From positions 1 to 35,268 of the forward strand of contig JAAYIV010000037.1 of assembly GCA_012523305.1 (NCBI GenBank): a stretch of 35,268 nucleotides of DNA, written 5' to 3'. Below, one piece after another: positions 394-32,167 of the stretch. Positions within the stretch are counted from its first letter, which is position 1. Every line of letters starts with the position of its first letter. The notes under the pieces were generated by a model, which made no database searches, had not been told where the DNA came from, and saw nothing but the letters and a program-made list of their open reading frames with translations. Origin of the DNA: Spirochaetales bacterium. GTDB lineage: Bacteria; Spirochaetota; Spirochaetia; Sphaerochaetales; Sphaerochaetaceae. Both the position numbers and the translations under genes were made by a program.

Positions 394-410
394 CAACGTT
401 TCCTGATATG

Positions 411-443
411 ACATGTCGCCCATTGTCGAGAAGGGCGACATGT
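411..443. terminator. Hairpin between convergent genes, probable bidirectional terminator
   Basis: ACATGTCGCCC at 411-421 pairs perfectly with GGGCGACATGT at 433-443 around an 11-nt loop. It lies 17 nt after the stop of the upstream + strand gene and directly abuts the stop codon of the - strand amidohydrolase gene. The U-tract is weak on both sides, so it may be a modest terminator or a 3'-end stabiliser. Confidence 0.6.
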
Positions 444-1730: not shown

Positions 1731-1759
1731 AACGATTGCACCCCATCTCAAGAAGATTC

Positions 1760-3463: not shown

Positions 3464-3509
3464 CTCACACCTCCACCCCTTCCAAAGGGGGTTGTACAGC
3501 AATGTGCCG

Positions 3510-3538
3510 ATTGTAGCATATTACGGTGGTGTCGGCAA
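3510..3538 (-). promoter_or_regulatory. Sigma70-like promoter of glnS
   Basis: On the - strand TTGCCG (3533-3538) is followed after 17 nt by TACAAT (3510-3515), with a TGC extended -10 just upstream. The predicted start is near 3503, giving a leader of about 40 nt that carries the glnS Shine-Dalgarno. Confidence 0.6.
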
Positions 3539-3593
3539 AGGTAGTCAACCAATGATTCTTCATCTGATTAGAACATAGATTTCGTAAAGGTAG

Positions 3594-3622
3594 ATGACTT
3601 TTATAGGGTAAGAGAGTATGCT
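3594..3622 (+). promoter_or_regulatory. Weak promoter candidate of the MATE gene
   Basis: ATGACT (3594-3599), 17 nt, TATGCT (3617-3622), then 9 nt to the ATG at 3632. No Shine-Dalgarno precedes that ATG, so the transcript would have almost no leader. Both hexamers are weak (about 4 of 6). Confidence 0.35.
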
Positions 3623-3631
3623 GATAAAAGT

Positions 3632-4993: not shown

Positions 4994-4996
4994 TGC

Positions 4997-5025
4997 TGTA
5001 CATCATCTTGGTAACACGGTAGAGT
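4997..5025 (+). promoter_or_regulatory. Promoter candidate of the HtrA-like gene, leaderless geometry
   Basis: TGTACA (4997-5002), 17 nt, TAGAGT (5020-5025), then exactly 6 nt before the ATG at 5032. The hexamers are only fair (4 of 6 each). The spacing would place +1 on the A of that ATG. Confidence 0.4.
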
Positions 5026-5031
5026 ATGAAC

Positions 5032-6312: not shown

Positions 6313-8306
6313 ACGAGCAATTATTTAAAGTCGCTGCCGATTATGAACCTGCAGGGGACCAAGCTGATGCGATAGAATTGTTGGCAGCGGGAATCGAATC
6401 AGGATTTGAACGGCAAACATTAAAAGGCGTAACCGGATCAGGAAAAACTTTTACGATGGCAAAGATCATCGAAAAAGTCCAACGACCGACGTTGATCCTA
6501 TCGCATAACAAAACATTGGCCGCCCAGTTATTCAGGGAATTTAAATCATTCTTTCCCGATAATGCTGTCGGGTATTTTGTATCCACATACGATTATTACC
6601 AACCAGAAGCATATGTCCCGGGTAAAGACCTTTATATCGAAAAAGATGCTGATATCAACGAAGAAATCGATAGATTGCGGCTCTTTGCCTCTTTTGCCCT
6701 GATGGAACGCCGCGATGTCATCATCGTGGCGACAGTCTCATGTATCTTTGGGTTAGGCAATCCTATGTCGCTTAAGGATATGGTAAAAACATTTACTGTC
6801 GGTAATACATTTGATCATAAGGAAGACATCGAACAGCTTGTCAGGATGCAATATGACCGTAACGATGTGATACTGCAACGCGGATCATTCAGATTGCGGG
6901 GTGACGTATTGGAAATCTGCCCTTCATATATGGAAACAGCGGTGAGAATCACTATTTCCTGGGATGAAATCGAAAGCATCACTTGGTTTGATCCAGTATC
7001 AGGCAATACATTATCGATTGAACAATCCTTCACATTATATCCGGCGAAGCAGTTCGTCATGCCACCCGAACAAATCCGTACCGCTATCGATCGGATCAAG
7101 GAAGAAATGAGCCGGCAACATGAGTTTTTCCTTTCCCAAGGGAAATTACTTGAAGCGGAACGTATCAAGACCCGTGTCGAGTATGATGTGGAGATGTTAC
7201 AGGAATTAGGATATTGCTCGGGAATCGAAAACTATTCGAGACCATTGGGAAATAGGATGCCAGGAGAAGCTCCTCCGGTGTTACTCAATTATTTCCCCGA
7301 AGGATTTTTAACCTTTATCGATGAATCCCATGTCACGTTACCTCAGATCGGAGCCATGTACGAAGGGGACCGAAGCAGAAAGCTGAATTTGGTAAATTAT
7401 GGATTTAGGTTGCCTTCTGCTTTAGATAACCGACCATTGAAATATGATGAATTTGATAAAACCTGTGGACAAAGGATTTATGTTTCCGCTACTCCTGGCA
7501 AAAGGGAAATTACGGAATCGGCACAAGTTGTCGAACAGGTAATCCGTCCGACAGGATTACTGGATCCGATAGTGGAAGTCAGACCGACTGTCGGGCAGAT
7601 GGAAGATCTGTATGGTGAGATTCGTACTACCATCGCAAAACATGAACGAGTGTTAGTAACGACATTGACCAAGCGGATGGCCGAAGATCTCAGTGATTAT
7701 CTGGCGAACCTAGGATTGCGGGTCAGGTATCTTCATTCAGAGATCGAGACCATCGAACGTGTCGAATTGTTACGTGATTTGCGCCTTGGGACGTATGATG
7801 TGCTGGTGGGAATCAACTTATTGCGGGAAGGTCTTGATCTGCCGGAAGTCTCGCTCATCGCAATATTGGATGCCGATAAGATTGGTTTCTTACGCTCGGC
7901 CACCAGTCTTATCCAAACGATTGGAAGAGCCGCAAGGAATGTGGACGGAAGGGTAATAATGTATGCCGATCGAATGAGCGATGCGATGACGGAAGCTATC
8001 AGCGAGACAAACAGAAGACGTTCTATTCAGGAAGCATTCAATACGGAGCACGGTATCACTCCAAAGACGATAGTGAAAGCAATACAAGATATCATAACCC
8101 GTGAGAAGCAAGATAAGCAGGAAATCCAGAAGGATGATATCAAAGTACTCAGAAGCAAGTACAATCTGCTCGTTGCCTCCGATAGAAAGAAGTATATTCA
8201 TGATCTTGAGCGTGAAATGCTTGAGCATGCGAAGAATCTCGAATTCGAACAGGCAGCGTTGTTACGTGATGAAATCGATGAGATAAAGAAAAACAACATC
8301 TCGTAG
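6309..8306 (+). CDS. uvrB: UvrABC system protein B
   Basis: DNA-damage recognition helicase of nucleotide excision repair; it receives DNA from UvrA and recruits UvrC. The Walker A motif GVTGSGKT is at residues 40-47. The beta-hairpin region YDYYQPEAYVP follows, FIDESH is the Walker B/DESH box, and conserved helicase motifs include LVGINLLREGLDLPEV and IQTIGRAARN. The C-terminal UVR domain (LEREMLEHAKNLEFEQAALLRDEI, given here only as a motif region) contacts UvrC. The 665-residue length is normal. The start overlaps the protease stop by ATGA, which implies translational coupling. The neighbouring - strand gene begins only 7 nt beyond the stop and no terminator hairpin separates them. Confidence 0.97.
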   Translation: MNEQLFKVAADYEPAGDQADAIELLAAGIESGFERQTLKGVTGSGKTFTMAKIIEKVQRPTLILSHNKTLAAQLFREFKSFFPDNAVGYFVSTYDYYQPEAYVPGKDLYIEKDADINEEIDRLRLFASFALMERRDVIIVATVSCIFGLGNPMSLKDMVKTFTVGNTFDHKEDIEQLVRMQYDRNDVILQRGSFRLRGDVLEICPSYMETAVRITISWDEIESITWFDPVSGNTLSIEQSFTLYPAKQFVMPPEQIRTAIDRIKEEMSRQHEFFLSQGKLLEAERIKTRVEYDVEMLQELGYCSGIENYSRPLGNRMPGEAPPVLLNYFPEGFLTFIDESHVTLPQIGAMYEGDRSRKLNLVNYGFRLPSALDNRPLKYDEFDKTCGQRIYVSATPGKREITESAQVVEQVIRPTGLLDPIVEVRPTVGQMEDLYGEIRTTIAKHERVLVTTLTKRMAEDLSDYLANLGLRVRYLHSEIETIERVELLRDLRLGTYDVLVGINLLREGLDLPEVSLIAILDADKIGFLRSATSLIQTIGRAARNVDGRVIMYADRMSDAMTEAISETNRRRSIQEAFNTEHGITPKTIVKAIQDIITREKQDKQEIQKDDIKVLRSKYNLLVASDRKKYIHDLEREMLEHAKNLEFEQAALLRDEIDEIKKNNIS

Positions 8307-8313
8307 ATAGTGA

Positions 8314-9237
8314 CTAACGACCGAATAACACCATATCAATCGGGCCGTCACCTGTTTGCGGAAGCTGTTTGCCATAATCTAGTTTAAAAAGAATCCTCCG
8401 TGTGTTGTCAAACAAACTCCTCACAGTAATTTTACCGTTGTTCATGGCAGGCATGCTATGTAAAGATCCTAGTGTTCCCGCTACCGTGGTGATTTCCCCA
8501 TCGACTTTTACTTCATCGGTGTGATTATGGTTCCAACCCAAAGCTTCTAGCAGACTGTAAGTAAACTTCCCATGGACATGATTTGTATATGAATCTAATT
8601 CATATGATTTTTGATTCTTAGTCGATGCGGATATGACAAAGAGCGAAGGATCGTATGACTCACGTAGTTGGACGATATTATCCTCAATATCAGGATATTC
8701 GGTTACCGAATTCCCACTGTAGCATGAATCCATGATCAAGACCTTTGATCCTTTTATTTCTTTTATATCTGCAACGAACGAATCGATGGGATAAATAGCA
8801 GAGTTATTAGGAAAGGCGGTAGGATTAACGACCAGGTCTCCTGAGCCATCAACGCCATGCCCCGCGTAATAGACAATGAGGATATCCGTTTCTTTCATCA
8901 ATGATTTGATCTCACTCAATTTGGTTCTTATGTTTTCGATCGTCGGGTAATCAGATGCAAGCGGATCGGCATTTGAGCTTTCTTGTAACAACATATGAGT
9001 GTACAACGTAGCACGGTATTGGTCTGTTAATTCATCGATTGCCTTTGCAAATTCCTTTGCATCACGGATGGTTCCTTCTAAGTGATTTATGGTTGAAGTG
9101 TTCTTATAATCCAAGGAAATGACGAGCAGGTGATATTCGGGAGCTATAGGAGGATCGATGAAGAGTTCACAGGAAGTGAAGGTGATGATAAAAAGAGTTA
9201 TGAGGCTGATGATGCTTATCAGTCTGGTATGTCTCAT
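8314..9237 (-). CDS. Caspase-like (peptidase C14 fold) lipoprotein
   Basis: A 307-residue predicted secreted lipoprotein. It starts with a basic/hydrophobic signal peptide ending at a relaxed lipobox FTSC (C23), which is acceptable for spirochaetes. The mature part has the caspase/metacaspase core: ILIVYYAGHG supplies the catalytic His (H127), and KVLIMDSCYSG supplies the Cys (C172) in the family's DSCYSG context. ISASTKNQKSYE and GKFTYSLLEALG match the later caspase-fold strands. Bacterial caspase-like proteins cleave after basic or acidic residues, but the target here is unknown. The ATG at 9237 overlaps the stop of the barrel gene by ATGA and has a GGGAG Shine-Dalgarno, so the two are coupled. 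An in-frame start at 9276 exists but would bury the signal peptide. Confidence 0.82.
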   Translation of the reverse strand: MRHTRLISIISLITLFIITFTSCELFIDPPIAPEYHLLVISLDYKNTSTINHLEGTIRDAKEFAKAIDELTDQYRATLYTHMLLQESSNADPLASDYPTIENIRTKLSEIKSLMKETDILIVYYAGHGVDGSGDLVVNPTAFPNNSAIYPIDSFVADIKEIKGSKVLIMDSCYSGNSVTEYPDIEDNIVQLRESYDPSLFVISASTKNQKSYELDSYTNHVHGKFTYSLLEALGWNHNHTDEVKVDGEITTVAGTLGSLHSMPAMNNGKITVRSLFDNTRRILFKLDYGKQLPQTGDGPIDMVLFGR

Positions 9238-9866
9238 AGCTGCTCCCTGATAACAGGAATACCGGTCAGTTGCCACTTTAGCCCAACCCCAACGCTGAAC
9301 GAATGATAATCAGGCCTGTAGTAATACCTGATTGGAAGTGTGAGAGATAGGATGTGTTTTTGATCAATCAGATATAATTCTCCGGCCACCGATACCCTTA
9401 ATAAATTGGAAGGACTCAGATACTTCGAATACGAACTCACCATATAAGCGATATTCGTAGCGATCGAAAAATGTTGGTCTAAGCGTATCACCATATCCAA
9501 TCCCGCTCCGATAGCGAAGAATGAACTCCATACCACGTTACCGTAGTCAAATGATTCGGAAACAAAGGCAACATCCAAATCCAAAGAGACTTGGAGGTTG
9601 TCAGAGATTTCGAACGCCACCGGCTGAAAGGTAAAATTCATGCCTGTGTGGCTACGAATGGGTAATTGGTCAAGATGCATTTCATCAGGGATGCTTACGT
9701 ACCAGAACACATCGGTTTTAACTCCCAGGGCATACGGAGTCTCTTGTATCGTTGTTGCTAGCACATGTGGTGTCATAAAGATGAAAATAAGCGTGCTGCA
9801 AGCCACTAGCAATGAATTGAGTCTTGCACATGTCTTATTAAGAACTTGCCAATTGGATTTTCTCAC
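9234..9866 (-). CDS. Predicted outer-membrane beta-barrel protein, unknown function
   Basis: A 210-residue protein with a cleavable-looking signal peptide (hydrophobic stretch followed by VLATT near residue 38). The rest alternates polar and hydrophobic residues in short aromatic-capped strands (VSLDLDVAFVS, FFAIGAGLDMVIRL, FSVGVGLKWQL), the usual look of a small 8-10 strand outer-membrane barrel. I do not recognise a family. The start is GTG with AAAGGTGATG upstream; a nearby ATG is out of frame. The coding end overlaps the caspase-like lipoprotein start, so both are made together and probably act at the same envelope site. Confidence 0.65.
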   Translation of the reverse strand: MRKSNWQVLNKTCARLNSLLVACSTLIFIFMTPHVLATTIQETPYALGVKTDVFWYVSIPDEMHLDQLPIRSHTGMNFTFQPVAFEISDNLQVSLDLDVAFVSESFDYGNVVWSSFFAIGAGLDMVIRLDQHFSIATNIAYMVSSYSKYLSPSNLLRVSVAGELYLIDQKHILSLTLPIRYYYRPDYHSFSVGVGLKWQLTGIPVIREQL

Positions 9867-9905
9867 TAATATTCATCACCTTTCATCCTACTATACCGCA
9901 ATCGG

Positions 9906-9934
9906 AAGTTATTCGCTTCAGCATGGTAAGTCAA
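9906..9934 (-). promoter_or_regulatory. Possible promoter of the barrel/caspase pair
   Basis: On the - strand TTGACT (9929-9934) overlaps the thiQ stop codon and is followed after 17 nt by TAACTT (9906-9911). A TATAGT at 9892-9897 is an alternative -10 but lacks a good -35. No terminator separates thiQ from this gene pair, so read-through is possible. Confidence 0.3.
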
Positions 9935-10998
9935 TGTTTATTGATCACACTATCGATATATTCGGTGAGATCACTCATCCTTACTCCTAAAACAACAGCA
10001 TCACCCAGCGGTTTCATCCGTGCGAATGCTTGTATAGTATACCCGTTCCAGTTGCAAGCGAGTAGGTAGCGGCCGCCTTGATACTCACAGGAAACAACTT
10101 TACATGAATTAAACCTCAAATGGGGGAGAAATTCAGGAAATGCCAATTCAGGATTATCGTGTACGATCACACGTTCAGGACGAAAAAATATCTGCCTGTT
10201 TTCACCACCGCTCCGGAAAACGACTTTATCAGGACCTTTATCGGTAGAGACCAATATCGTAGGAATCACATCATATGGAAGTAATGTTCCTTCTCCCATG
10301 AATTTTGCAGCAAAGACGGTGGAAGGTTTTGCATATACATGTTCCGGTGTATCCAGTTGTTCCATTCTACCGTTATTCATCACCAAAACACGATCACTTA
10401 ATGTGAGGGCTTCTTCTTGGTCGTGAGTGACGTATAACGTGGTGATGCCGGTAGTGTCATGAATATTGCGAATCTCTTGTCTCAGATGCTTGCGTAATTT
10501 AGCATCGAGTGCTGATAACGGTTCATCCAACAGTAGTAATTTTGGCTTGGATGCCAAAGCCCTTGCCAAAGCTACACGTTGTTTCTCGCCACCGCTGAGT
10601 TGGGCGATGTTTCTTTTCGCATACCCTTCGAGACCTACCAATTCCATTAGGCTGCGTGTCGTCTGCAATCGTTCCTTTCTTCCGATGTGTTTGATTTTTA
10701 AGCTGTAAGCAATATTTTGTTCTACATTCAGGTGAGGAAAGAGGGCATAATCCTGAAACACCATCGCTATCTGGCGATCCCATATCGGTACATTGGTAAT
10801 ATCTCTGCCATACAACCTGATAGTGCCTTTTTCACATTTCAGTAACCCTGTGATGAGTTGCAATGTAGTGCTCTTGCCACAACCCGAAGGACCGATAATC
10901 GAAACTAATTCACCTTCTGATATGGAAAAATCCAAACTGAGTGTGAATTCTGGATATGCGACCTCTAAATTGCTACACACTAAAGCACTTTCAGGCAT
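9931..10998 (-). CDS. thiQ: Thiamine ABC transporter, ATP-binding protein
   Basis: Cytoplasmic ATPase that powers thiamine/TPP import with ThiP and ThiB. Walker A GPSGCGKST is at 36-44, the Q-loop at FQDYALF, the signature LSGGE at 134-138, and Walker B LLLLDEP at 154-160 followed by the H-loop in VTHDQEEA. At 355 residues it is longer than E. coli ThiQ and has a C-terminal TOBE-like extension, as in FbpC/PotA-type ATPases. The thiamine assignment comes from context: it is the third gene of a unit headed by a TPP riboswitch and a ThiB-like protein. Its start overlaps the thiP stop by 8 nt and has an AAAGGA Shine-Dalgarno. Confidence 0.88.
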   Translation of the reverse strand: MPESALVCSNLEVAYPEFTLSLDFSISEGELVSIIGPSGCGKSTTLQLITGLLKCEKGTIRLYGRDITNVPIWDRQIAMVFQDYALFPHLNVEQNIAYSLKIKHIGRKERLQTTRSLMELVGLEGYAKRNIAQLSGGEKQRVALARALASKPKLLLLDEPLSALDAKLRKHLRQEIRNIHDTTGITTLYVTHDQEEALTLSDRVLVMNNGRMEQLDTPEHVYAKPSTVFAAKFMGEGTLLPYDVIPTILVSTDKGPDKVVFRSGGENRQIFFRPERVIVHDNPELAFPEFLPHLRFNSCKVVSCEYQGGRYLLACNWNGYTIQAFARMKPLGDAVVLGVRMSDLTEYIDSVINKH

Positions 10999-12706
10999 AT
11001 TTTTTCCTTTTGATTGATTCAGCTATGAAAAATATGATGATATAAAAAAGAATCAAGACCGAGCCTAATGCACAAGCAGCATTATAATTGTACGACCCTA
11101 TAAGGCGATACATGACAATCGGTATGGTGATGACATGTGAATCAGACAAGACGAGAGTCGCGTTAAGTTCACCCATGGAGATGGCAAATGCAAAAGATGC
11201 TCCGGTTACCATCGCTGAACGCAGCAACGGAATCTCAATCTTTCTGAAGGTTTTTGAAACGGTTGCTCCCAAAGTCATCGATGCTTGCATGTATGTTGGC
11301 AGAATACTCCTATAGGTAGGTAAAATTGTTCGTAACACCAAAGGAGAGGCAATGACGACATGAGCCATCACCAATGCAATCATTTTCCAGGATGTCGACC
11401 CATATAGTCTTGAAGAGATTATGTGGTATCCCAACCCGATGATCACAGATGAAACAGCCATCGGCATCATTGCTAGCAATTCGGTCAATAGTCTTCCTCT
11501 TTGCTTTAGCGAGCAGAGGATTGCCGATGTGATGGTACTGGTAATCAACGAAACTAATGCCGTGACAAAAGCGATCGCCGTGCTATAGAGTATCGCGGTT
11601 ATCGCACTGGTAAATAGAAAAGACTGCGAAAATCCAAACAATTGTCGGTACCATTTAAGTGAAAATTCCATCTGGCTCGTTCGTGTTAACGGTGCTTGAA
11701 ACGACCTTACGACAATTGCGATCATCGGGCCCAAAACGAATATCGCCAGAAGCATCGAGTAAACAATGATCAGGAACACGGCAGCAAATGTGGGTTTACG
11801 TAAGCCCATCATCCTTTTTCTAGTACTCAACGGGCTTGTAAACTCTTCCTGGTTACTCATGATGTTCTGCATGTATGAATAGACTGCGACGAAACATAAT
11901 GCTATGACGATTGAAACTACACTTAACGCAGCGGCAGCATTGGTATCGAGCATAATTCGTGCTTCACGGTATATTTCAACTTCCATCGTGGTAAATTGAG
12001 GGCCGCCCCCGAGAACAAGAATGATAGCAAAACTTGAATAGCAGAATAAGAAGACCAGCGTGGAAGCACTGATGATCGCAGGAGTCAACCGGGGTAGCGT
12101 AATTGTCCTGAATGTTGTGAAGCCTCTTGCTCCTAGTGTAGAGGCTGCTTGGTTTGCGCTCACAGGCAAACGTTCCCAATACGATGAGATGAGACCCATC
12201 GCGATCGGTATGTTATAAAAAGCATGGGCCATGATAATGGCTTTGAACGAATAGAGAATGTGTAAAGGTGGTTCGTTCAAGTCGAACAATTGAATCAACA
12301 TCCGATTTACCATCCCGCTGTTACCATAAAATATCACGAATCCCAATACTACAAGAATGGATGGCAATACGAACGGAACCATGCAAAGTGATTTGATCAG
12401 ACGTTTTCCCTTAAATTCAAAATTGGATGTCAGATATGCTCCGGGCAAGGCTACCAATACTGAAACGAACGTGCTCAAAAATGCTTGGAACAATGTGAAG
12501 GCCAATATCCGTATGATATAGGGGTTCGTTACAATCGATGTAATTCTTTGAAAAGTAACAGTGCCAGCGTCATCGACAAAAGCGTTGAACAAAAGTATCG
12601 CAAGAGGAATAATAAAAAGCACGATGAGTATGAGTAATCCAGGAAGACCTATCAATGAATAGAATGAACTGTGTTGATAGACAGATCTGGGAGCACCTTG
12701 TTTCAT
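10991..12706 (-). CDS. thiP: Thiamine ABC transporter, permease
   Basis: A 571-residue inner-membrane permease with about 12 transmembrane segments. It is a fusion of two permease domains, as in ThiP and FbpB. Each half has an EAA-type coupling region: AASTLGARGFTTFRTITLP in the first and ASMTLGATVSKTFRKIEIP in the second. I use the ATG at 12706 because it overlaps the thiB stop by ATGA and has GGAGG upstream. It forms the channel of the riboswitch-controlled thiamine importer. Confidence 0.9.
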   Translation of the reverse strand: MKQGAPRSVYQHSSFYSLIGLPGLLILIVLFIIPLAILLFNAFVDDAGTVTFQRITSIVTNPYIIRILAFTLFQAFLSTFVSVLVALPGAYLTSNFEFKGKRLIKSLCMVPFVLPSILVVLGFVIFYGNSGMVNRMLIQLFDLNEPPLHILYSFKAIIMAHAFYNIPIAMGLISSYWERLPVSANQAASTLGARGFTTFRTITLPRLTPAIISASTLVFLFCYSSFAIILVLGGGPQFTTMEVEIYREARIMLDTNAAAALSVVSIVIALCFVAVYSYMQNIMSNQEEFTSPLSTRKRMMGLRKPTFAAVFLIIVYSMLLAIFVLGPMIAIVVRSFQAPLTRTSQMEFSLKWYRQLFGFSQSFLFTSAITAILYSTAIAFVTALVSLITSTITSAILCSLKQRGRLLTELLAMMPMAVSSVIIGLGYHIISSRLYGSTSWKMIALVMAHVVIASPLVLRTILPTYRSILPTYMQASMTLGATVSKTFRKIEIPLLRSAMVTGASFAFAISMGELNATLVLSDSHVITIPIVMYRLIGSYNYNAACALGSVLILFYIIIFFIAESIKRKKYA

Positions 12707-13731
12707 CTGCTCATTGCCTCCACCCATTCAGTAAGCCATCTATCCTGATTTTTTACAAGGATTTCAAAGTCAATACTCAACAATTTCTTTGGTTGCGCGA
12801 TCACGTCAAAGGCAGGGGGAAGTTCGGTAGTCATATTCGCGGGATACATGACATTTGCAACGGCAATAGTCGATTGGGCATCGGTCAGCAGGTATTCGAT
12901 GAATGCTTTCGCTCCATCTTTGTTTTTTGAACTGGTAAGCATACCGACACCTTCGATTACCAGCGCATTGCCTTCTTCAAATGCCGTGGAAACATAACGG
13001 TCGGTATCTTCCGCCATGATGTGATAAACGGGACTCGTGGTATAACTGATGACTATCGGTGCTTCGCCTTGAGTGAACAATCCATAGCCTGACGACCATG
13101 AATCAGCGATGGTGAGAATATTTGGTTTGAGGGCTGTCCACCAAGAGATATAATTTTCTCCATATACGGCATATGACCATTCAAGAAGTCCCATTCCGAC
13201 ACTCGATGTGCGGGGATCCATGAGGATAATGCTCTTTTTCCATGTGGGGTCAAGCAAATCCTGCATCGAGACAGGTGGCGTATCGATATGATCGGAATCA
13301 TAGATAAACGAGAATACTCCGTAATTGAAAGGGATGAATACGTTATCAGGATCGATATGTAAGAACGGAAAGATTTCATTCATCGCCCGCGGGACATATG
13401 CTTCGAACAATCCTGAATCTCGCATTTGTCCCAACGATCCGTTCGGAATACCAAGAATGATATCGGCTCTCGGATTGTTTCGTTCCAACTGTGCACGACG
13501 CAACAGTTCTGAGGCGTTGCCTACCGAAACCAAATGTACTTTTATCCCCGTACTTTGTTCGAATCCCGCGATTACGGCAGGCCCTGGACCCCATTCAGAT
13601 ACGAAAGAATCATACGCATAAACTGTGATAGCATTGTCCTGTTGGTAGGGTTGTTCTTTTTGTGCCGCGGTAAATATGGGCGACGAGATTAAAAGGATGA
13701 CAACCACCAAACTTAAGAAACGGTGTTTCAT
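12703..13731 (-). CDS. thiB: Thiamine ABC transporter, periplasmic binding protein
   Basis: A 342-residue periplasmic solute-binding protein with an N-terminal signal peptide (cleavage likely after FTAAQ). The first mature segment ITVYAYDSFVSEWGPGP and the following LERNNPRADIILGIPNG resemble the TbpA/ThiB family closely. It captures thiamine or its phosphates for ThiPQ. The gene sits 55 nt downstream of a TPP riboswitch, which independently supports the substrate. It has a strong GGAGGAGGT Shine-Dalgarno a few nt before the ATG. Confidence 0.93.
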   Translation of the reverse strand: MKHRFLSLVVVILLISSPIFTAAQKEQPYQQDNAITVYAYDSFVSEWGPGPAVIAGFEQSTGIKVHLVSVGNASELLRRAQLERNNPRADIILGIPNGSLGQMRDSGLFEAYVPRAMNEIFPFLHIDPDNVFIPFNYGVFSFIYDSDHIDTPPVSMQDLLDPTWKKSIILMDPRTSSVGMGLLEWSYAVYGENYISWWTALKPNILTIADSWSSGYGLFTQGEAPIVISYTTSPVYHIMAEDTDRYVSTAFEEGNALVIEGVGMLTSSKNKDGAKAFIEYLLTDAQSTIAVANVMYPANMTTELPPAFDVIAQPKKLLSIDFEILVKNQDRWLTEWVEAMSR

Positions 13732-13786
13732 GATACACCTCCTCCATTGGTTTGCTGTCGATGGGGATTCATAGCGGAAGAAACAT

Positions 13787-13861
13787 GTCTCCCTTCGCTG
13801 GTATTATCCAGATCAGGTTCAACGGGTTTGATCTCAGGCCTCACATGGCCACCCCATGACA
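13787..13861 (-). promoter_or_regulatory. TPP riboswitch (THI element)
   Basis: Read on the - strand the element begins GTCATGGGGTGGCC, continues with GGCCTGAGATC and ACCCGTTGAACCTGATC, and closes with TAATACCAGCGAAGGGA. These are the conserved THI-box blocks in the right order. It lies upstream of thiBPQ and should shut off expression when TPP is plentiful. I see no hairpin with a U-run between it and thiB, so control of translation by hiding the GGAGGAGGT site is more likely than termination. Confidence 0.95.
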
Positions 13862-13866
13862 CACAA

Positions 13867-13895
13867 ACGGTAATTAAAAAGAATCGATATGTCAA
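13867..13895 (-). promoter_or_regulatory. Promoter of the riboswitch-thiBPQ unit
   Basis: A perfect TTGACA (13890-13895) is followed after 17 nt by a weak TACCGT (13867-13872) on the - strand. The predicted +1 near 13860 coincides with the 5' end of the TPP riboswitch. Confidence 0.6.
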
Positions 13896-13914
13896 GGCTA
13901 TTGTCACAATAGCC
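13896..13914. repeat. 8-bp perfect inverted repeat with a stop codon in its loop
   Basis: GGCTATTG, TCA, CAATAGCC. On the - strand the three loop bases are the TGA stop of the metal-binding protein gene, and the stem ends one base from the thi -35 hexamer. It could be a 3'-end hairpin for the metal-transport mRNA or a protein-binding dyad at the thi promoter. No U-run follows at once. Confidence 0.6.
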
Positions 13915-14680
13915 CGAGCAACTCCATATTATATCTCAATACCTCTAGAATCGATGTTGTTTCACCTTGACCCGGGAAATTGATTAATTGGACATAGGTC
14001 CTGCCAGCTGTCGCGAGAGATTGGCCACTGGCATTATGCCAATTGTCAATAATAATCTGTGGTTGAAGTGCTTCGATTGTCTGTAATTGACCAAGGGTCA
14101 ATTCTTCAGGACCGAACACCGCGACAACATCGTATCCCAGCCATTTGGCTAAACTCTGGTGGTGAAATTGCACCGCAGCTTTTATCTTTCCGGTATTGTG
14201 TAACTTAGTGTTATTCAAAACAGCGAGCTCAAATTCATCAAGCTCCTTTAGCCAATCGTTCAAGTATTCTTCTGTCTTCAACCGGGAAGCCAGATTACTC
14301 ACCGATACTCTGAGTAGGTCCGGAGAATTATTGGTTGAAACCTTAATGATTTTTTCTTCAGGGATTTTTGCAGCTTGAGCCAATTCGTTCATAAAACTCT
14401 CATAACCTGCCCACAAAAGGACATCCGCTTCAGCAGCAGTAATGATGTCTGAAGGTCTGAAATCATACTCTGGTGGATGCCTTAACTCTAGAGGAGCTAA
14501 AATCTTGGTTACGTGCACTCCCGCTGCTTCAGCCATTGCAGATACCCAAGAAGTCGAAGCTATGACAACTTGTGAATCCGCTTCTTCCCGCTGGACTTCG
14601 GTAAAAGCTTGGGTGAACACCGGTACACTGACAATGAACATCAACGTGACGAAGATCATGACAAATACATTTTTTTTCAT
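13904..14680 (-). CDS. ZnuA/TroA-like metal ABC transporter, binding protein
   Basis: A 258-residue periplasmic cluster A-I type metal-binding protein with a signal peptide (residues 1 to about 24). Candidate metal ligands are H68 in RHPPEYDFRPSD, the counterpart of the DPHxYxPxPSD loop of ZnuA; H173/H174 in FHHQSLAKWLGY; and H215 in IIDNWHN. The usual acidic histidine-rich zinc loop is absent, so specificity is open. I use the ATG at 14680 because AGGAG is 9 nt upstream of it but only 3 nt from the first ATG at 14686. It is the last gene of the nikR-like/znuCB-like unit, so the metal is probably the one sensed by that regulator. Confidence 0.8.
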   Translation of the reverse strand: MKKNVFVMIFVTLMFIVSVPVFTQAFTEVQREEADSQVVIASTSWVSAMAEAAGVHVTKILAPLELRHPPEYDFRPSDIITAAEADVLLWAGYESFMNELAQAAKIPEEKIIKVSTNNSPDLLRVSVSNLASRLKTEEYLNDWLKELDEFELAVLNNTKLHNTGKIKAAVQFHHQSLAKWLGYDVVAVFGPEELTLGQLQTIEALQPQIIIDNWHNASGQSLATAGRTYVQLINFPGQGETTSILEVLRYNMELLGLL

Positions 14681-14692
14681 AAACATATGCTC

Positions 14693-15517
14693 CTATTCGA
14701 TGTGATTTACTGTGGTTTTTGGAAATAGTAACGAGACAGCTAGGATAATCGCTGACACCAGTGCAGTGCTTGCCCCTACGGGAAGATCCAATGCCAATGC
14801 GATGAGAAAGCCTCCGATGGAAGAAAGCATGCCAAATGCCGAACTGAGCACTAAGGCTATCGCAAAGTTTCTGGCGATTCTCAATGCGGCAATTGCCGGG
14901 AGCAAAATCAAAGCGTCTACTAGCAAAGCCCCTACAAGTCTTAACGCTGTGGCCACCCCGACACCTAGAAGAATGAACATGATCATGGCAATGGCATCTA
15001 CAGGTACGCCCAAGTTCCTGGCGGTTTCTTTATCAAGCAATACTAATTGGACTTCCCTGTAGGCAATCGAGAAGAAAAGGAGAATGAAAATTCCCAAAGC
15101 AAAAACAAGAATGAGGTCTCCGCTCGTAAGCATCAATATGTTGCCTGCAAAGATATCGAACACGTGCATCGCGGGGACTCCGGATACCGCAAGGATGATA
15201 AAAGCCCCTGCCAATGAACCCGTCATGATCAAACCGCTCGCAGAACTGGTGGAAATCGAACGTTTGTTACTGATCGAAGCCATGAGAACAGAAGAAAGGA
15301 CTACCAGGGTAAAAGCTCCCAATATTGGAGGGTAGGCCAAGGCAGTGGAAACGGCTGCACCCAATAGCCCCGTATGCATCAGTGTGAAACGGATGGCAGT
15401 AAGATTCAATGAGACGATAATGATTCCCAATAGCGATAATGTCCCCCCGGCGATTACCATGCCAATAAAAGCATTCCTGATGATGGGTAGAGAAAAAGCT
15501 TGGATTAATGCGTTCAT
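14693..15517 (-). CDS. ZnuB-like metal ABC transporter, permease
   Basis: A 274-residue inner-membrane protein with about eight hydrophobic segments, typical of the ABC-3 permease family for Zn, Mn or Fe. Conserved features include the segment LVGALLVDALILLPAIAA and the glycine-rich cytoplasmic region DKETARNLGVPVDA. It overlaps the upstream ATPase gene by ATGA at 15514-15517 and is followed by the binding-protein gene after 6 nt, so it is tightly coupled to both. The transported metal is not certain. Confidence 0.88.
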   Translation of the reverse strand: MNALIQAFSLPIIRNAFIGMVIAGGTLSLLGIIIVSLNLTAIRFTLMHTGLLGAAVSTALAYPPILGAFTLVVLSSVLMASISNKRSISTSSASGLIMTGSLAGAFIILAVSGVPAMHVFDIFAGNILMLTSGDLILVFALGIFILLFFSIAYREVQLVLLDKETARNLGVPVDAIAMIMFILLGVGVATALRLVGALLVDALILLPAIAALRIARNFAIALVLSSAFGMLSSIGGFLIALALDLPVGASTALVSAIILAVSLLFPKTTVNHIE

Positions 15518-16203
15518 GCCATTTCTCCATTTAACTCGAATATGTGACCGTCCTCTATTTTCAGCAATCGATCATGTTTCATAAGCGGCATATGTTCATG
15601 TGTGACTGTTATCATCGTGATATGCAATTCTTTATGTAGAGATCGAATCAATTGAATAAATTCATCTTTACTTTCAGGGTCCAGATAAGTGGTCGGCTCA
15701 TCCATCAAAAGCAACGGCGGTTTGCGAACAAGAGCACGAGCGAGAGCTATTCTTTGACGCTGCCCACCTGAAAGTGTCCTAATATCCTTTGTCGCCAGAT
15801 GCTGTGCTCCTATAAGCTCCAAGGTGTCCCATGCAGCTTGATAATCTTCTTTCTTGCATCGGTGCAACCAAGAAAAAGATGATCCCCATCGGCCGATGAG
15901 TACACTTTCAAATACTGATATGGCAATCTTCGGATCCTGTTGGATTTGTGAAAGATATCCGATCTGGATACGTACGCATCTTTTCGCCGCTTCACAGTTC
16001 AACGGCGTGTTAAGTACCGTAACGGTACCCGAAGTTGGAGATAGAGCTCCGCATAATAGTTTCAGTAACGTGCTTTTTCCACCTCCGTTGGGGCCAATTA
16101 TCACAACAAAGGTTCCGCTCTCAACCGAGAAGGAGACATTGTGGATCACAGGATCTTTACCATAGCCGGCTTCCACCTGATCTAATGTGATTATCGAACT
16201 CAT
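15514..16203 (-). CDS. ZnuC-like metal ABC transporter, ATPase
   Basis: A 229-residue ATPase of the ABC-3 metal importer group. Walker A GPNGGGKST is at 37-45, the signature LSGGQ at 144-148 and Walker B LLLMDEP ends at 170, followed by VTHEH. The frame is open far upstream, but the ATG at 16203 overlaps the stop of the NikR-like gene and has AAGGGG about 8 nt before it. The upstream extension would duplicate the NikR coding region in another frame and looks nothing like an ABC protein. It works with the permease and binding protein encoded directly downstream. Confidence 0.9.
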   Translation of the reverse strand: MSSIITLDQVEAGYGKDPVIHNVSFSVESGTFVVIIGPNGGGKSTLLKLLCGALSPTSGTVTVLNTPLNCEAAKRCVRIQIGYLSQIQQDPKIAISVFESVLIGRWGSSFSWLHRCKKEDYQAAWDTLELIGAQHLATKDIRTLSGGQRQRIALARALVRKPPLLLMDEPTTYLDPESKDEFIQLIRSLHKELHITMITVTHEHMPLMKHDRLLKIEDGHIFELNGEMA

Positions 16204-16619
16204 CAATACAACCCCTTGAATACATCTTCGGTAGCGACAAACGTAAGATTTCCGATTACGTGTCGTTGTCCGATAAGTTCTTGGGCCCAGGCTCGAACTT
16301 CTTTGCATACGCCTGAAACTATGAGGATTTTCATGCAGATGTTTTTCTCAAGATGCTGTTGGAGATTGGTGATGAGGCGTAAGGAAGCGTATCGATCGAT
16401 AGGATTCCTTACCAACTGCACAGTATAATGGAAAATCAATTGGACAATTGCCGTCACCTCCGTGTCATCGTCTTGAATGCTGTTGGCTACTAATTCTTTT
16501 CTAACGAGAGAACGAATCGCTTCGCTTCTATTCGCATAATTTTGATTGATGGTGAGTTTGTCCAGTTCTTCAACCAGCTCCTTTTCCATCGAGACTCCGA
16601 ATCGAATGATTTCTGACAT
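16203..16619 (-). CDS. NikR-like ribbon-helix-helix metal regulator
   Basis: A 138-residue protein aligned by eye with NikR. Residues 1-45 are the ribbon-helix-helix DNA-binding domain (IIRFGVSMEKELVEELDKL, NRSEAIRSLVR). The remainder is an ACT-like metal domain ending IGQRHVIGNLTFVATED. Of the four residues that bind nickel in E. coli NikR (H76, H87, H89, C95), H89 and C95 are kept while positions 76 and 87 are Arg and Gln. The sensed metal may therefore not be nickel. It heads a unit with a ZnuCBA-type importer, probably as its repressor, and has an AGGGGG Shine-Dalgarno. Confidence 0.82.
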   Translation of the reverse strand: MSEIIRFGVSMEKELVEELDKLTINQNYANRSEAIRSLVRKELVANSIQDDDTEVTAIVQLIFHYTVQLVRNPIDRYASLRLITNLQQHLEKNICMKILIVSGVCKEVRAWAQELIGQRHVIGNLTFVATEDVFKGLY

Positions 16620-16661
16620 ATTATCCCCCTGATAGGTACTAGATTGTCATACTTTTCATAT

Positions 16662-16691
16662 AGTAACACGAAATAAGATTATTGTGCTACT
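16662..16691. promoter_or_regulatory. Candidate operator for the NikR-like regulator
   Basis: AGTAACAC (16662-16669), 14 nt, GTGCTACT (16684-16691): an inverted repeat with one mismatch. Half-site centres are 22 bp apart, the same as in the E. coli NikR operator (GTATGA-N16-TCATAC). It overlaps a TACTAT -10 candidate for the NikR-like gene on the - strand. A third related half-site, CCAGTAGC, lies at 16728-16735, inside the divergent nnr promoter. Confidence 0.5.
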
Positions 16692-16723
16692 GGATTGAGC
16701 ATGATATATCCGTTACCTCTGCA

Positions 16724-16752
16724 TTGACCAGTAGCGTTGCAGCTATTATCAT
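16724..16752 (+). promoter_or_regulatory. Promoter of nnr, leaderless geometry
   Basis: TTGACC (16724-16729), 17 nt, TATCAT (16747-16752), then exactly 6 nt to the ATG at 16759. Both hexamers match consensus at 5 of 6. There is no Shine-Dalgarno. The CCAGTAGC half-site begins inside the -35. Confidence 0.65.
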
Positions 16753-16758
16753 GACGGT

Positions 16759-18342
16759 ATGGAAGCATTGGTAAGTACCAAGACTATGGAGCAAATTGAT
16801 CGCGACGCCCAACGCCAATGGGGTTTTCCCGAACTTGTTTTAATGGAACAGGCAGGAATCAAGGGCTGGAATGCTTTTCTGGAAAATACCGAAAGGCAAG
16901 AAGTGAAAACGTCCAAATTGTTATTTGTCGCTGGTGGCGGTAACAACGGGGGAGATGCCCTTGTCATGGCTCGGCAAGCTTATTTGGATGATTTCAAGCA
17001 TATCGGTGTGTTGCTTGTCGGTTCTCACATTTCCAATGCCTGTTTGATCCAACGCACGATGATCGCTTCACTGGGACTTACAACGTATGAGCTGTCGGTC
17101 GAAGCCGAAGACATAGAACCGCAGGTACGGACGTTGATCGAACATGCCGATATCATCATCGATGGCCTCGCTGGGACTGGATTGAGGGGAAGTTTGACCG
17201 GAAAAGCTGCCTTTTTAGTCAAACTGTTGAATGGACAACGCGAGCGGGGAGCTCATATCTGGGCTATCGATATACCTTCGGGCTGTTCGGATACGCTTCA
17301 AAGCGTTCATCCTAACATCAATGCAAACATAACCGCGACCATGGGGTTAAAAAAAGCAGCATGCTATCATCCCGGTTCAAGAGAAGCCTGGGGGAAGGTA
17401 ATCGTAGTGAATCCGTCATTTCCACCACAACTGTTGGCTCGTGCGGAGAAGAGTGCTCTGCTTTGTGATGAAAGTGACATTGAAGTGGTTCGCTTGAAAG
17501 AGGATAGTTATAAAAACAAGCGGGGACATATCGGAATCTTTGCTGGGAGCCGACAGTATACGGGAGCTCCGAGATTGGCTGCAAAGGCAGCATTTCATTC
17601 TCGTGCGGGATTGGTTACCATTTGTTGTGACGATGAGATTTCCTCGGTTGTCGCAACGACTTCACCTACAATTATAGTTCGATCAATAATGAAAGGAGAA
17701 ACTATTCTGGCAGATGAGTTAGTTTCAGAATTTTCTTCTTTGGTAGCCGGACCCGGTTGGGGATTTGAACATGAACAGCAATTGTTTGAAATTCTAGCCA
17801 GCGGGATTCCGACGGTATTGGATGCTGATGCGATCACGATCTTTGCGAGTCTTTTTTCAAAAGGAAAACTAGCTAACCTGTCGTTGAATAAGGTCGTACT
17901 GACTCCGCACCCGGGTGAACTGCATCGGATGCTGGAAAGACTTGGCATGCCGTTGTTAGCCCAAGAGACCTCAATCGTAAATAGTTCAAGTGAATCGTTT
18001 ATCGAGTCGATGCATAAAATAGCTGCCATGCTACATGTGGTCTTGGTATACAGGAGCCATGTGGTGTGGTTGTTTGACGGTAACGGAGAATATTCGGTTC
18101 CAATGGTCGTGGACGGTATGAACAATGCCCTCGGAGTCGCTGGAAGCGGTGATGTATTTGCTGGAATTATCGGTGCTATGTTAGCTCAACATGCCGAGCC
18201 GATGATAGCTGCTGTCAATGCAGCGGTAATTCACCAGAAAGCGGGCATGCTCGCAAGAACATCGCACGGGTGGTTTGATTCGGATGAATTGACCGAGTAC
18301 GTAGGCCATGCTTGCAGATTGTTGGAACAAAAAGCCATATGA
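16759..18342 (+). CDS. nnr: Bifunctional NAD(P)HX epimerase/dehydratase
   Basis: Metabolite-repair enzyme that restores hydrated NADH and NADPH. The N-terminal YjeF_N domain epimerises the R form (GGGNNGGDALV at 59-69). The C-terminal ribokinase-like domain dehydrates the S form using ADP. TPHPGEL and the GSGD motif with catalytic D465 mark the second domain. The 527-residue length is normal for the fused bacterial form. It starts with an ATG exactly 6 nt after a -10 and no Shine-Dalgarno, so the mRNA is probably leaderless. It is divergent from the nikR-like unit and overlaps the next gene by ATGA. Confidence 0.94.
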   Translation: MEALVSTKTMEQIDRDAQRQWGFPELVLMEQAGIKGWNAFLENTERQEVKTSKLLFVAGGGNNGGDALVMARQAYLDDFKHIGVLLVGSHISNACLIQRTMIASLGLTTYELSVEAEDIEPQVRTLIEHADIIIDGLAGTGLRGSLTGKAAFLVKLLNGQRERGAHIWAIDIPSGCSDTLQSVHPNINANITATMGLKKAACYHPGSREAWGKVIVVNPSFPPQLLARAEKSALLCDESDIEVVRLKEDSYKNKRGHIGIFAGSRQYTGAPRLAAKAAFHSRAGLVTICCDDEISSVVATTSPTIIVRSIMKGETILADELVSEFSSLVAGPGWGFEHEQQLFEILASGIPTVLDADAITIFASLFSKGKLANLSLNKVVLTPHPGELHRMLERLGMPLLAQETSIVNSSSESFIESMHKIAAMLHVVLVYRSHVVWLFDGNGEYSVPMVVDGMNNALGVAGSGDVFAGIIGAMLAQHAEPMIAAVNAAVIHQKAGMLARTSHGWFDSDELTEYVGHACRLLEQKAI

Positions 18343-18785
18343 TACAAGGATATTTTCTTGCTGTTCTATACATGATATTGGGTTCTGGACTGCTGCTTGT
18401 AGATTATTACGGTGGCAAATTACTGATTTTTATCCGGCTGAAAAATTCATTGCGTACGAACTTTAGGACCCAATTGTTGTTATTATTGGGAGGTCTGGCA
18501 ATCGTAGCGATTAAGATCTTTTTTCCGATTCTTCCCGGCCCGATACTGATTGGTGATTTTATCCCGGTCGTTGTCATATTGCTATTGGTCGTCTACTGTC
18601 TGACTTTCATGGTTCGATTCAAACAGAAAGGAGAACAGGCTGTTAAGGAAGAGGGAAGGCGTTTTGAGAAGGAGATGCTTGAACGAACTGAAAAATTGAT
18701 CGAAAAGAACAAACGTAATCTTGGATTTGTCGTCCTTGCCTGCGCTTTAATGCATTTTTTATTCCCTCAAGCCGTTTTACTATAG
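18339..18785 (+). CDS. Small integral membrane protein, unknown function
   Basis: A 148-residue protein I do not recognise. Hydrophobic segments are near residues 2-24, 45-65, 70-92 and 128-148. The third and fourth are separated by a charged, helical, Glu/Lys-rich stretch (EEGRRFEKEMLERTEKLIEKNKR) likely to lie in the cytoplasm. Its ATG overlaps the nnr stop (ATGA) and it has no Shine-Dalgarno of its own, so translation probably depends on nnr. A longer frame from 18312 would overlap nnr by 31 nt and is less likely. Confidence 0.75.
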   Translation: MIQGYFLAVLYMILGSGLLLVDYYGGKLLIFIRLKNSLRTNFRTQLLLLLGGLAIVAIKIFFPILPGPILIGDFIPVVVILLLVVYCLTFMVRFKQKGEQAVKEEGRRFEKEMLERTEKLIEKNKRNLGFVVLACALMHFLFPQAVLL

Positions 18786-18797
18786 GAGAAAAATCAG

Positions 18798-19211
18798 TTG
18801 GCCTATGAATCGACCAAAGAACGGATAACAACAGCTGGCGTATTGATTGTATCAGGTAGATACTTTGTGGCTCAACGTAGACAAGGAGGAGCTATCGGAG
18901 GCTTGTGGGAATTTCCCGGGGGTAAGCATAGATGGGGAGAAACTCCAGCACAATCATTGGCACGGGAATTCATAGAGGAATTCGGTCTTTCGGTTCATGT
19001 TGGACAATGTTTTCATAAACATGATTTTATCCATCGCGACACATTGTTCCATTTGCATGCGTTTTGGGTCGAAACGAAGGATCCGGTTCGGCTATCCCTC
19101 CATGAACACCAACAAGTGAGATGGGTAAGTCTGAACGATTTGATGGCACTTGAGTTCGTGCCCTCCGATATTCCTGTGCGGGAAGCTGTCTATAAATACT
19201 CATTTGCCTAA
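18798..19211 (+). CDS. MutT-like Nudix hydrolase
   Basis: A 137-residue protein with a full Nudix box at residues 42-64 (G-x5-E-x7-REFIEEFGL). FVAQRRQGGAIGGLWEFPGGK is the MutT/8-oxo-dGTP diphosphatase type of approach to the box. It probably cleans oxidised nucleotides from the pool or hydrolyses other nucleoside diphosphate derivatives. The start is TTG at 18798 with AGGAG 9 nt upstream; no better ATG is in frame before the conserved region. It is the third gene of the nnr unit, consistent with a nucleotide-repair theme. Confidence 0.88.
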   Translation: MAYESTKERITTAGVLIVSGRYFVAQRRQGGAIGGLWEFPGGKHRWGETPAQSLAREFIEEFGLSVHVGQCFHKHDFIHRDTLFHLHAFWVETKDPVRLSLHEHQQVRWVSLNDLMALEFVPSDIPVREAVYKYSFA

Positions 19212-19237
19212 AAAAGCGACGGTATGAACCCGTCGCT
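19209..19237 (-). terminator. Rho-independent terminator of glgAC
   Basis: Stem AGCGACGG (19215-19222) / CCGTCGCT (19230-19237) with a 7-nt loop. On the - strand it is followed by TTTTTT. The U-run overlaps the stop codon of the Nudix gene. It may also act weakly on the + strand. Confidence 0.9.
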
Positions 19238-19262
19238 CGCTGTATAAGTGAATTCAATGAAA

Positions 19263-20558
19263 TCAAAGTATCGTTCCATGAGGAATTACGGCATTTTTAT
19301 GAATTACGATAATACCATCGTGGATTGAATAATTGTTGAAATCACCTTCGTTTCTCTGCATATCATCGATTCCGATGCGGCAGTTATCACCGATTCGGGC
19401 ATTTTGGTCGATGATCGCACGTCTGATAATCGAAGCTCTGCCAATTCCGATGTTCGGTATTTTTTTCTTGGTATTATCACGTTTCTCTTCATCTGTTTCG
19501 TAATATGAAGCTCCCATGCAGTACACTCCATCCAAACTTGCCCCTGATTCGATCAGCGTACGCACACCGATAATCGAATTCACAATATATGCATTGGTAA
19601 TAATCGAGCCTTCACTCGTGAGTGAACTGCTGATAGTACAGAAATTTACCTTGGTGGCCGGCAGATGACGCCTATGGGTGTATATCGGCATCTCTTCGTC
19701 GTAAAAATTAAATGCCGGGGAAATCGAAGCGAGGTCGATATTCGTATCGTAGAAAGCCTTGATGGTTCCGATGTCTTCCCAGAATCCGTCGAACAAAAAT
19801 GTGCTGACTTTGTGGGTCTTGATGACATCGGGAATAATTTCTTTTCCAAAGTCGGTCGATGTATTGGATTGGAGTATCTCTTCCATGACTCTGGCATTGA
19901 AAATATAAATGCCCATCGACGCTAAATATTCGTTCGATTCGTTTACTTTCATGTGCAAGCTGGTCTTCATCAGCTTCTCGGGAATCTTAAAATCCGAGAT
20001 ATCCAGATCGGGTGCGGGTTTTTCATAGAACTTGGTGATATAGCCCTTCTCATCAGCGCCGATGATTCCCAATCCGGTAGCATTTGCCCTTGATACCGGT
20101 TTTGCAGCAATGGTGAGCACTGCCTCACTGGCGATGTGCTGGCGGAGCATTTCTTCAAAATCCATCCGGTACAGCTGGTCTCCGGAAAGAATGATATAAT
20201 AGTCAGGCTGTTGGTCGGCAAAATGCTTCAGATTCTTGCGTACCGCATCTGCGGTTCCTTGATACCAATCATTGTTATGATAGGTTTGTTCCGCAGCCAA
20301 GATTTCAACGAATCCGTTTGAGAACGTATCGAAAATATAGGTATTCGCGATATGGTTGTGTAATGAAGCTGAATTGAATTGAGTCAAAATGTAGATTTGT
20401 TTGATTCCGCTGTTGATACAATTGGAAATAGGAATATCTACAAGTCGATATTTACCGGCAAATGGAACTGCAGGTTTTGAGCGATCTTTTGTAAGTGGGT
20501 AGAGCCGAGTCCCTCTGCCGCCTCCAAGTACGATTGCTATTGCTTTTTTCTTGCCCAT
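19263..20558 (-). CDS. glgC: Glucose-1-phosphate adenylyltransferase
   Basis: Makes ADP-glucose from ATP and glucose-1-phosphate, the committed step of bacterial glycogen synthesis. The N-terminus has the nucleotidyltransferase loop GGGRGTRLYPLTKDRSKPAVPFAG (motif region at residues 12-35), then YRLVDIPISNCINSG. The C-terminal third has left-handed beta-helix hexapeptide repeats (IIDQNARIGDNCRIG). The 431-residue length is normal. GAGGTGAG precedes the ATG and overlaps the glgA stop, so it is coupled to glgA. Confidence 0.97.
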   Translation of the reverse strand: MGKKKAIAIVLGGGRGTRLYPLTKDRSKPAVPFAGKYRLVDIPISNCINSGIKQIYILTQFNSASLHNHIANTYIFDTFSNGFVEILAAEQTYHNNDWYQGTADAVRKNLKHFADQQPDYYIILSGDQLYRMDFEEMLRQHIASEAVLTIAAKPVSRANATGLGIIGADEKGYITKFYEKPAPDLDISDFKIPEKLMKTSLHMKVNESNEYLASMGIYIFNARVMEEILQSNTSTDFGKEIIPDVIKTHKVSTFLFDGFWEDIGTIKAFYDTNIDLASISPAFNFYDEEMPIYTHRRHLPATKVNFCTISSSLTSEGSIITNAYIVNSIIGVRTLIESGASLDGVYCMGASYYETDEEKRDNTKKKIPNIGIGRASIIRRAIIDQNARIGDNCRIGIDDMQRNEGDFNNYSIHDGIIVIHKNAVIPHGTIL

Positions 20559-22020: not shown

Positions 22021-22050
22021 ATTAGACCACTGAAATCAGTGAACAGTCAA
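22021..22050 (-). promoter_or_regulatory. glgA promoter with a palindrome in its spacer
   Basis: TTGACT (22045-22050), 18 nt, TCTAAT (22021-22026) on the - strand, both 5 of 6 to consensus, ending 6 nt before the glgA ATG. The spacer holds a perfect palindrome CACTGA-AA-TCAGTG (22028-22041), a strong candidate operator. Farther up, at about 22063-22082, is an imperfect inverted repeat AATTG...CAATT around a CGCTT core. Confidence 0.65.
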
Positions 22051-26638: not shown

Positions 26639-27169
26639 CTAACGTTTCGTTTTCGCAGGGCTGACAATAATGGACATCATTCGTCCTTCCATCACAGCAC
26701 TGCGATCAAGATTGTATGCTACTCCATTTTGTGTAAGAAGTTCAAGTATGTTATCAAGAACCGCTTTGCCCAATTCGGGGTGAGCCATTTCTCGACCTCT
26801 GAATCTAACAGAAATCTTGACCTTGTTCCCTTCACCCAAAAATTCGGTGATGAATTTTGTCTTGAACTCAAGATCGTGTTTTTCAATCTTGGGTTGCATC
26901 CTGATTTCTTTAACTTTTATGATTGTCTGATTCTTTTTAGCCTCACGGACCCGCTTTTCTTGCTCATACCTCAACTTGCCAAAATCAAGGATTTTACATA
27001 CGGGAGGATTGGTATTGGGTGAAACCTCGACCAAATCAAGTCCCGACTGCTCTGCCAGTTCTATTGCGTCATAGAGGTTCATCACACCCTTTTGTTCGCC
27101 ATCGGCGTCGATAACCAATACTTCTCTTGCCCTGATCTGTCTGTTGATCCGTAAATCCTTGGTAGCCAA
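26639..27169 (-). CDS. infC: Translation initiation factor IF-3
   Basis: A 176-residue IF-3: an N-terminal domain with INRQIRAREVLVIDADGEQKG and NPPVCKILDFGKLRYE, a lysine-rich linker, and a C-terminal domain ending MMSIIVSPAK. IF-3 blocks premature subunit joining and discriminates against non-AUG starts. The start is most likely TTG at 27169, because GAGGAG is 5 nt before it; a GTG at 27175 directly touches the GAGGAG and is poorly placed. A rare start in infC is the basis of autocontrol in E. coli (AUU), so a TTG here would fit. It heads the infC-rpmI-rplT-zapB-like unit. Confidence 0.95.
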   Translation of the reverse strand: MATKDLRINRQIRAREVLVIDADGEQKGVMNLYDAIELAEQSGLDLVEVSPNTNPPVCKILDFGKLRYEQEKRVREAKKNQTIIKVKEIRMQPKIEKHDLEFKTKFITEFLGEGNKVKISVRFRGREMAHPELGKAVLDNILELLTQNGVAYNLDRSAVMEGRMMSIIVSPAKTKR

Positions 27170-27240
27170 TCGCACTCCTCTTGTCTCAATGAAACAACAT
27201 TGATAATTAGATTACTATGCATTATCCCTGCACGAAGGCA

Positions 27241-28475: not shown

Positions 28476-28504
28476 TTGACCGCTTCGAGCCGGACGAGTA
28501 GAGT
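28476..28504 (+). promoter_or_regulatory. Promoter of the 28511 gene, leaderless geometry
   Basis: TTGACC (28476-28481), 17 nt, TAGAGT (28499-28504), then exactly 6 nt to the ATG at 28511. No Shine-Dalgarno is present. Confidence 0.6.
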
Positions 28505-30191: not shown

Positions 30192-30220
30192 ATCCTAGCC
30201 GTTATATAAACAGGATGCAA
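30192..30220 (-). promoter_or_regulatory. tatD promoter candidate, leaderless geometry
   Basis: TTGCAT (30215-30220), 17 nt, TAGGAT (30192-30197) on the - strand, then exactly 6 nt to the ATG. The -35 is weak (3 of 6) and is inside the hairpin arm of the prx 3' end. Confidence 0.4.
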
Positions 30221-32138: not shown

Positions 32139-32167
32139 ATGATAAACAAATGCGCCGATCTCAACAA
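32139..32167 (-). promoter_or_regulatory. Promoter candidate of the Crp/Fnr gene, near-leaderless
   Basis: TTGTTG (32162-32167), 17 nt, TATCAT (32139-32144) on the - strand, then 7 nt to the ATG. The -35 is weak and the -10 is 5 of 6. No Shine-Dalgarno is seen. Confidence 0.45.

Follow-up and report, generated by a model that had tools for sequence, protein, structure and literature searches.

The nnr promoter and similar arrangements in the window

The stretch of DNA analyzed here (35,268 nucleotides, hereafter called the window) carries on its forward strand the nnr gene, coding for an NAD(P)HX epimerase/dehydratase (16759..18342). Upstream of its ATG at 16759, a -35 hexamer TTGACC (16724..16729) is followed after 17 nucleotides by a -10 hexamer TATCAT (16747..16752), and the latter is separated from the start codon by the 6-nt gap gacggt (16753..16758), which ends with a pyrimidine at position -1. 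The arrangement TTGACC-N17-TATCAT-N6-ATG reported at this place by the first-pass annotation was recovered exactly (16724-16761), together with the absence of a Shine-Dalgarno sequence (SD; SD score of 0). The predicted transcription start (+1) is A16759, the first base of the start codon. On the opposite strand, a NikR-like regulator gene (16203-16619), which adjoins an ABC transporter ATPase gene, is transcribed divergently from nnr, the two starts lying 139 nt apart.

The same 6-nt gap had been noted at four other genes, and the full arrangement was found at all of them. On the reverse strand, glgA has a -35 hexamer TTGACT (22045..22050), an 18-nt spacer and a -10 hexamer TCTAAT (22021..22026), 6 nt before the ATG at 22014. 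On the forward strand, the gene at 28511-29410 is preceded by TTGACC (28476..28481), an N17 spacer and TAGAGT (28499..28504), again with a 6-nt gap; this promoter is among the strongest leaderless candidates of the window, and the 299-residue product had no match in Pfam or NCBIfam. For tatD (reverse strand), the elements are TTGCAT (30215..30220), an N17 spacer and TAGGAT (30192..30197), 6 nt before the ATG at 30185. This gene was dropped by a simple SD filter because its -10 hexamer resembles an SD sequence. Finally, the HtrA-like gene (forward strand) shows TGTACA (4997..5002), an N17 spacer and TAGAGT (5020..5025), and here the 6-nt gap fits only the second in-frame ATG (5032), not the first ATG of the open reading frame (5026).

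These sites were scored with a matrix derived from 23 genes located outside the window and compared with 43,872 decoy ATGs. The P values were 0.0006 for nnr, 0.0008 for glgA, 0.0002 for the 28511 gene, 0.0001 for tatD and 0.0002 for the HtrA-like gene (ATG 5032), so that all five rank within the top 0.1% when set against the decoys. With its 9-nt gap, the MATE gene had been mentioned beside these genes; it scored like a random ATG (P = 0.54) and was rejected. For the Crp/Fnr gene on the reverse strand, the gene identity, the possible -10 hexamer TATCAT (32139..32144) and the 7-nt gap before the ATG at 32131 were as annotated (TTGTTG-N17-TATCAT-N7), but a purine (G) is found at -1 and the start codon is uncertain, so that its leaderless status is doubtful.

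As to the other contents of the window, a caspase-like domain protein is encoded on the reverse strand at 8314-9276 (PF00656, E 5e-14), and terminator-like hairpins are about twice as numerous within positions 1-20000 as in shuffled DNA (34 vs 15.6).

Positional enrichment of the -10 motif in the genome

When the window was scanned for sigma-70 promoters irrespective of gene starts, 34 sites were found against 43 expected in shuffled sequences. As the plain scan thus gives fewer sites than shuffled DNA, a single site has no meaning and the test must be positional: the signal lies solely in where a site stands with respect to the ATG. The positional test was carried out on 1.06 Mb (42%) of the window's own genome (2.56 Mb in 187 contigs). 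Genes were called with a home-made dicodon model, in which starts were picked without upstream information, and the test set consisted of the 176 SD-less genes that are first in their transcription unit and whose free upstream DNA measures 40 nt or more.

The first-pass annotation had proposed to look for TANNNT at -12 to -7 before SD-less ATGs over the whole genome, and the enrichment was found. The motif starts at -12 in 24 of the 176 genes, where 4.6 were expected (P = 1.6e-10); the expected value is the mean over positions -60 to -21, at which the maximum count was 10. At the flanking positions, the motif is far rarer (11 genes at -13 and 9 at -11). Removal of the window left the result standing (23/168 vs 4.45, P = 4.5e-10), and among the genes with an unambiguous start, 7 of 16 carry the motif at -12 (P = 5e-7). 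SD-led genes showed no peak at -12 (3/266), and the signal was weak in SD-less genes located inside operons (3/68 vs 0.9 with the simple motif; 4/68 with the matrix). The enrichment is a statistical one: roughly one in five of the genes with TANNNT at -12 would be expected by chance.

Position -12 is in frame with the start codon, and upstream stop codons could therefore mimic TANNNT. AT-rich upstream DNA, combined with in-frame stops near the first ATG, might in this way yield the peak by composition alone, and 7 of the 24 hexamers do begin with TAA or TAG. When only TA[CT]NNT was counted, however, the peak at -12 persisted (17 vs 3.1, P = 3e-8), and the stop-codon artefact was rejected. Furthermore, only 1.3% of 43,806 other ATGs, used as decoys, carry the motif, and no peak was obtained when 250 kb of E. 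coli MG1655 were passed through the identical pipeline (1/58 vs 1.1).

The 24 genes were picked on three positions only (T at -12, A at -11 and T at -7), and several features that played no part in this selection were found to accompany the motif. TTG lies exactly at -35 in 11 of the 24 genes, as against 2 of the 152 other SD-less genes (P = 2e-9). A pyrimidine occupies position -1 in all 24 (P = 2e-7), and all 24 start with ATG, compared with 112 of the 152 others (P = 0.003). In addition, T is found at -35 in 20 genes and G at -14 in 15. Read from the sequence, these features add up to a full sigma-70 promoter, from which transcription would naturally start, with a purine at +1 preceded by a pyrimidine at -1, on the A of the ATG. 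This co-occurrence of the -35 and -1 features, together with the conservation of the layout across genera described below, refutes the explanation by chance or base composition, to which we leave next to no probability.

The frequency of the arrangement was estimated with the matrix by two-fold cross-validation at a decoy rate of 1%. Among the SD-less unit-first genes, 32 of 176 (about 18%) scored as leaderless against 1.8 expected, and 22 of these 32 have a gap of 6 nt. When all genes were considered, 42 of 790 scored as leaderless, about 8 being expected from the decoy rate, which corresponds to about 4-5% of genes. The leaderless layout is strongly supported, but the suggestion that many genes share it has to be scaled down to these proportions, and it is not the dominant mode. 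A Pfam scan of nineteen of the leaderless hits located outside the window gave EPSP synthase, RsgA, DprA, NIF3, a GntR regulator, transporters and others; no obvious common theme was seen among these ordinary genes.

Conservation in the family and the class

At nnr, 10 other family genomes keep TTGACC-N17, and TTGACC-N17-TANNNT-N6-ATG also precedes the gene in genomes whose Nnr is only 40-58% identical to that of the window. In those relatives the spacers have diverged and the N-termini are kept. With weaker -35 boxes counted, TANNNT-N6-ATG is present at nnr in 16 of the 17 family genomes examined, the sole exception (G022) having a 7-nt gap. Similar footprints were observed at other genes of the window. 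The glgA orthologue in the relative G017 is preceded by TTGACG-N18-TCTAAT-N6-ATG, in which even the unusual N18 spacer and TCTAAT are kept; the tatD orthologue of the same genome has TAGGAT-N6-ATG, and the HtrA orthologue in G003 also shows the N6 layout.

Real promoters at these places might nevertheless serve translation from a downstream in-frame start, in which case the mRNA would carry a short leader, the annotation of the upstream ATG as the start being mistaken. The ambiguity between the ATGs at 5026 and 5032 of the HtrA-like gene illustrates how this could arise. At nnr, on the other hand, the start is backed by N-terminal conservation (ME.LVST..M..ID), which extends from the first Met on across eight genera, and the alignment of the NIF3 homologue with its Pfam family begins at residue 1. 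The genes concerned have no SD, and the selected starts are invariably ATG. We thus consider a downstream start highly improbable.

The leaderless status of individual genes was compared between reciprocal-best orthologues. Between the window's genome and G003, 6 pairs were leaderless in both, 2 and 2 in one genome only and 56 in neither (P = 8e-6, odds ratio 84); with G017, the corresponding numbers were 6, 5 and 4, and 60 (P = 4e-4, odds ratio 18). The -12 peak itself was found in G003 (14/84 vs 1.3, P = 1e-10) and in G017 (5/36 vs 0.5). It was absent from 200 kb of G022 (0/44), whose lineage may have come to rely less on leaderless genes.

To extend the comparison to the class, occurrences of TTGAC-N18-TANNNT-gap-ATG were counted in 61 whole genomes, independently of gene calls. 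The totals were 749 for a gap of 6, 449 for a gap of 7 and 258 for a gap of 9, gap 6 being about three times as frequent as gap 9. Gap 6 was more frequent than gap 9 in 33 of the 37 genomes from the family and in 22 of the 24 from other families. Over the whole of the window's own genome, the full pattern occurred 11 times with a gap of 6, the remaining gap lengths between 3 and 24 averaging 3.7 occurrences (P = 0.0015). Two Clostridia showed no gap-6 excess. As for the origin of the DNA, the best PDB matches of the ribosomal proteins uS3 and uL22 were both to 8fmw, the 70S ribosome of Borreliella burgdorferi (for uL22, 122 bits vs 97 for the next match). For glgA, the matches were confined to distant Chlamydiota and Clostridia, and the genome yielded no match to 16S rRNA. 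With its closest ribosomal proteins spirochaetal, the genome most likely belongs to a spirochaete.

Probable leaderless initiation and its relation to known systems

Taken together, these observations make it very probable that leaderless genes exist in this genome. The short distance between promoter and coding sequence would place their transcription start at the A of the ATG, or no more than about 1-3 nt away. The promoters are of the housekeeping, sigma-70 type, with TTGAC. at -35, TANNNT at -10 and often a G two bases upstream of the -10 hexamer. Judging from the sequence pattern, which does not separate a leader of 0 nt from one of 1-3 nt, RNA polymerase would start at the A of the ATG. 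The resulting mRNA would then be devoid of both leader and SD, and the ribosome would have to begin on a 5'-terminal AUG, presumably by 70S/5'-AUG initiation as in other bacteria. Leaderless initiation would be a minority mode that coexists with SD-led initiation and mostly concerns single genes or the first genes of units.

Several promoters per gene are common. The main transcript could come from a promoter located further upstream, and be leadered and SD-less (translated, for example, in an S1-dependent manner), the proximal promoter being secondary. No observation in favour of this was found. The fixed 6-nt gap, the pyrimidine at -1 and the conservation between orthologues show that the proximal promoter is itself under selection, and we regard an upstream main promoter as very unlikely; the start of transcription at or next to the ATG remains the preferred reading. 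It is conceivable, though rather doubtful, that leaderlessness is selected at particular genes (nnr, glgA, tatD, htrA and others) throughout the family, which would make them a regulatory class rather than the product of neutral promoter placement. If this were true, the members of such a class could, for example, continue to be translated under conditions that compromise SD-led initiation.

Zheng et al. (2011, PMC3160421) recognized leaderless genes by a TA-like signal located about 10 bp upstream of the start codon; of 18 spirochaete genomes, 6 were predicted to contain such genes, at 1.8-6.9% of genes. The TA-led genes of that study and those reported here are alike in the distance of about 10 bp between a -10-like signal and the start codon, in the lack of an SD and in their share of the genome (1.8-6.9% vs 4-5%); to these properties, the present genome (G000) adds a matching -35 element, the pyrimidine at -1, cross-genus footprints and orthologue tests. 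In Leptospira interrogans, differential RNA-seq placed primary starts less than 10 nt from the start codon for about 440 genes, of which 170-184 have a primary start exactly at the start codon, and no motif besides sigma-54 was reported for its starts (PMC5243855). Both organisms belong to one phylum, but the 5' ends are experimental in Leptospira and sequence-predicted here. Moreover, a clear sigma-70-type box at fixed spacing is seen in the present genome, whereas the Leptospira study reported the sigma-54 motif only.

The gene finder GeneMarkS-2 models a leaderless class, which it predicted for 21.6% of bacterial species and for which Mycobacterium, with as many as 40% of transcripts, serves as the example (as described in PMC9581028). 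The present genome resembles this class in combining leaderless and SD-led genes, and differs from Mycobacterium in proportion (about 4-5% of genes vs up to 40% of transcripts). The remark in the first-pass annotation that leaderless genes had not been described for this type of organism is therefore wrong at the phylum level, in view of the predictions in spirochaetes (PMC3160421) and the mapping in Leptospira interrogans (PMC5243855). A literature search combining leaderless genes and Sphaerochaeta found no report; for this spirochaete class, no mapped leaderless transcripts were found in the literature, and the spirochaete mapping found was that of Leptospira. The kind of gene being already known, the genome studied here is a well-supported new instance, not a new phenomenon.

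TTGAC.-N17-TANNNT-N6-ATG offers a clean sequence signature for leaderless genes in this class of spirochaetes. As the leaderless state of single genes is inherited across genera, the evolution of leaderless promoters becomes testable with cultivable relatives. Gene callers that expect an SD may misplace the starts of leaderless genes in these genomes.

Initiation factor IF-3 acts against leaderless mRNAs. Its gene, infC, is itself in the window (26639-27175, reverse strand); it is preceded by an SD and starts with TTG or GTG, which agrees with the atypical start codons for which infC is known.
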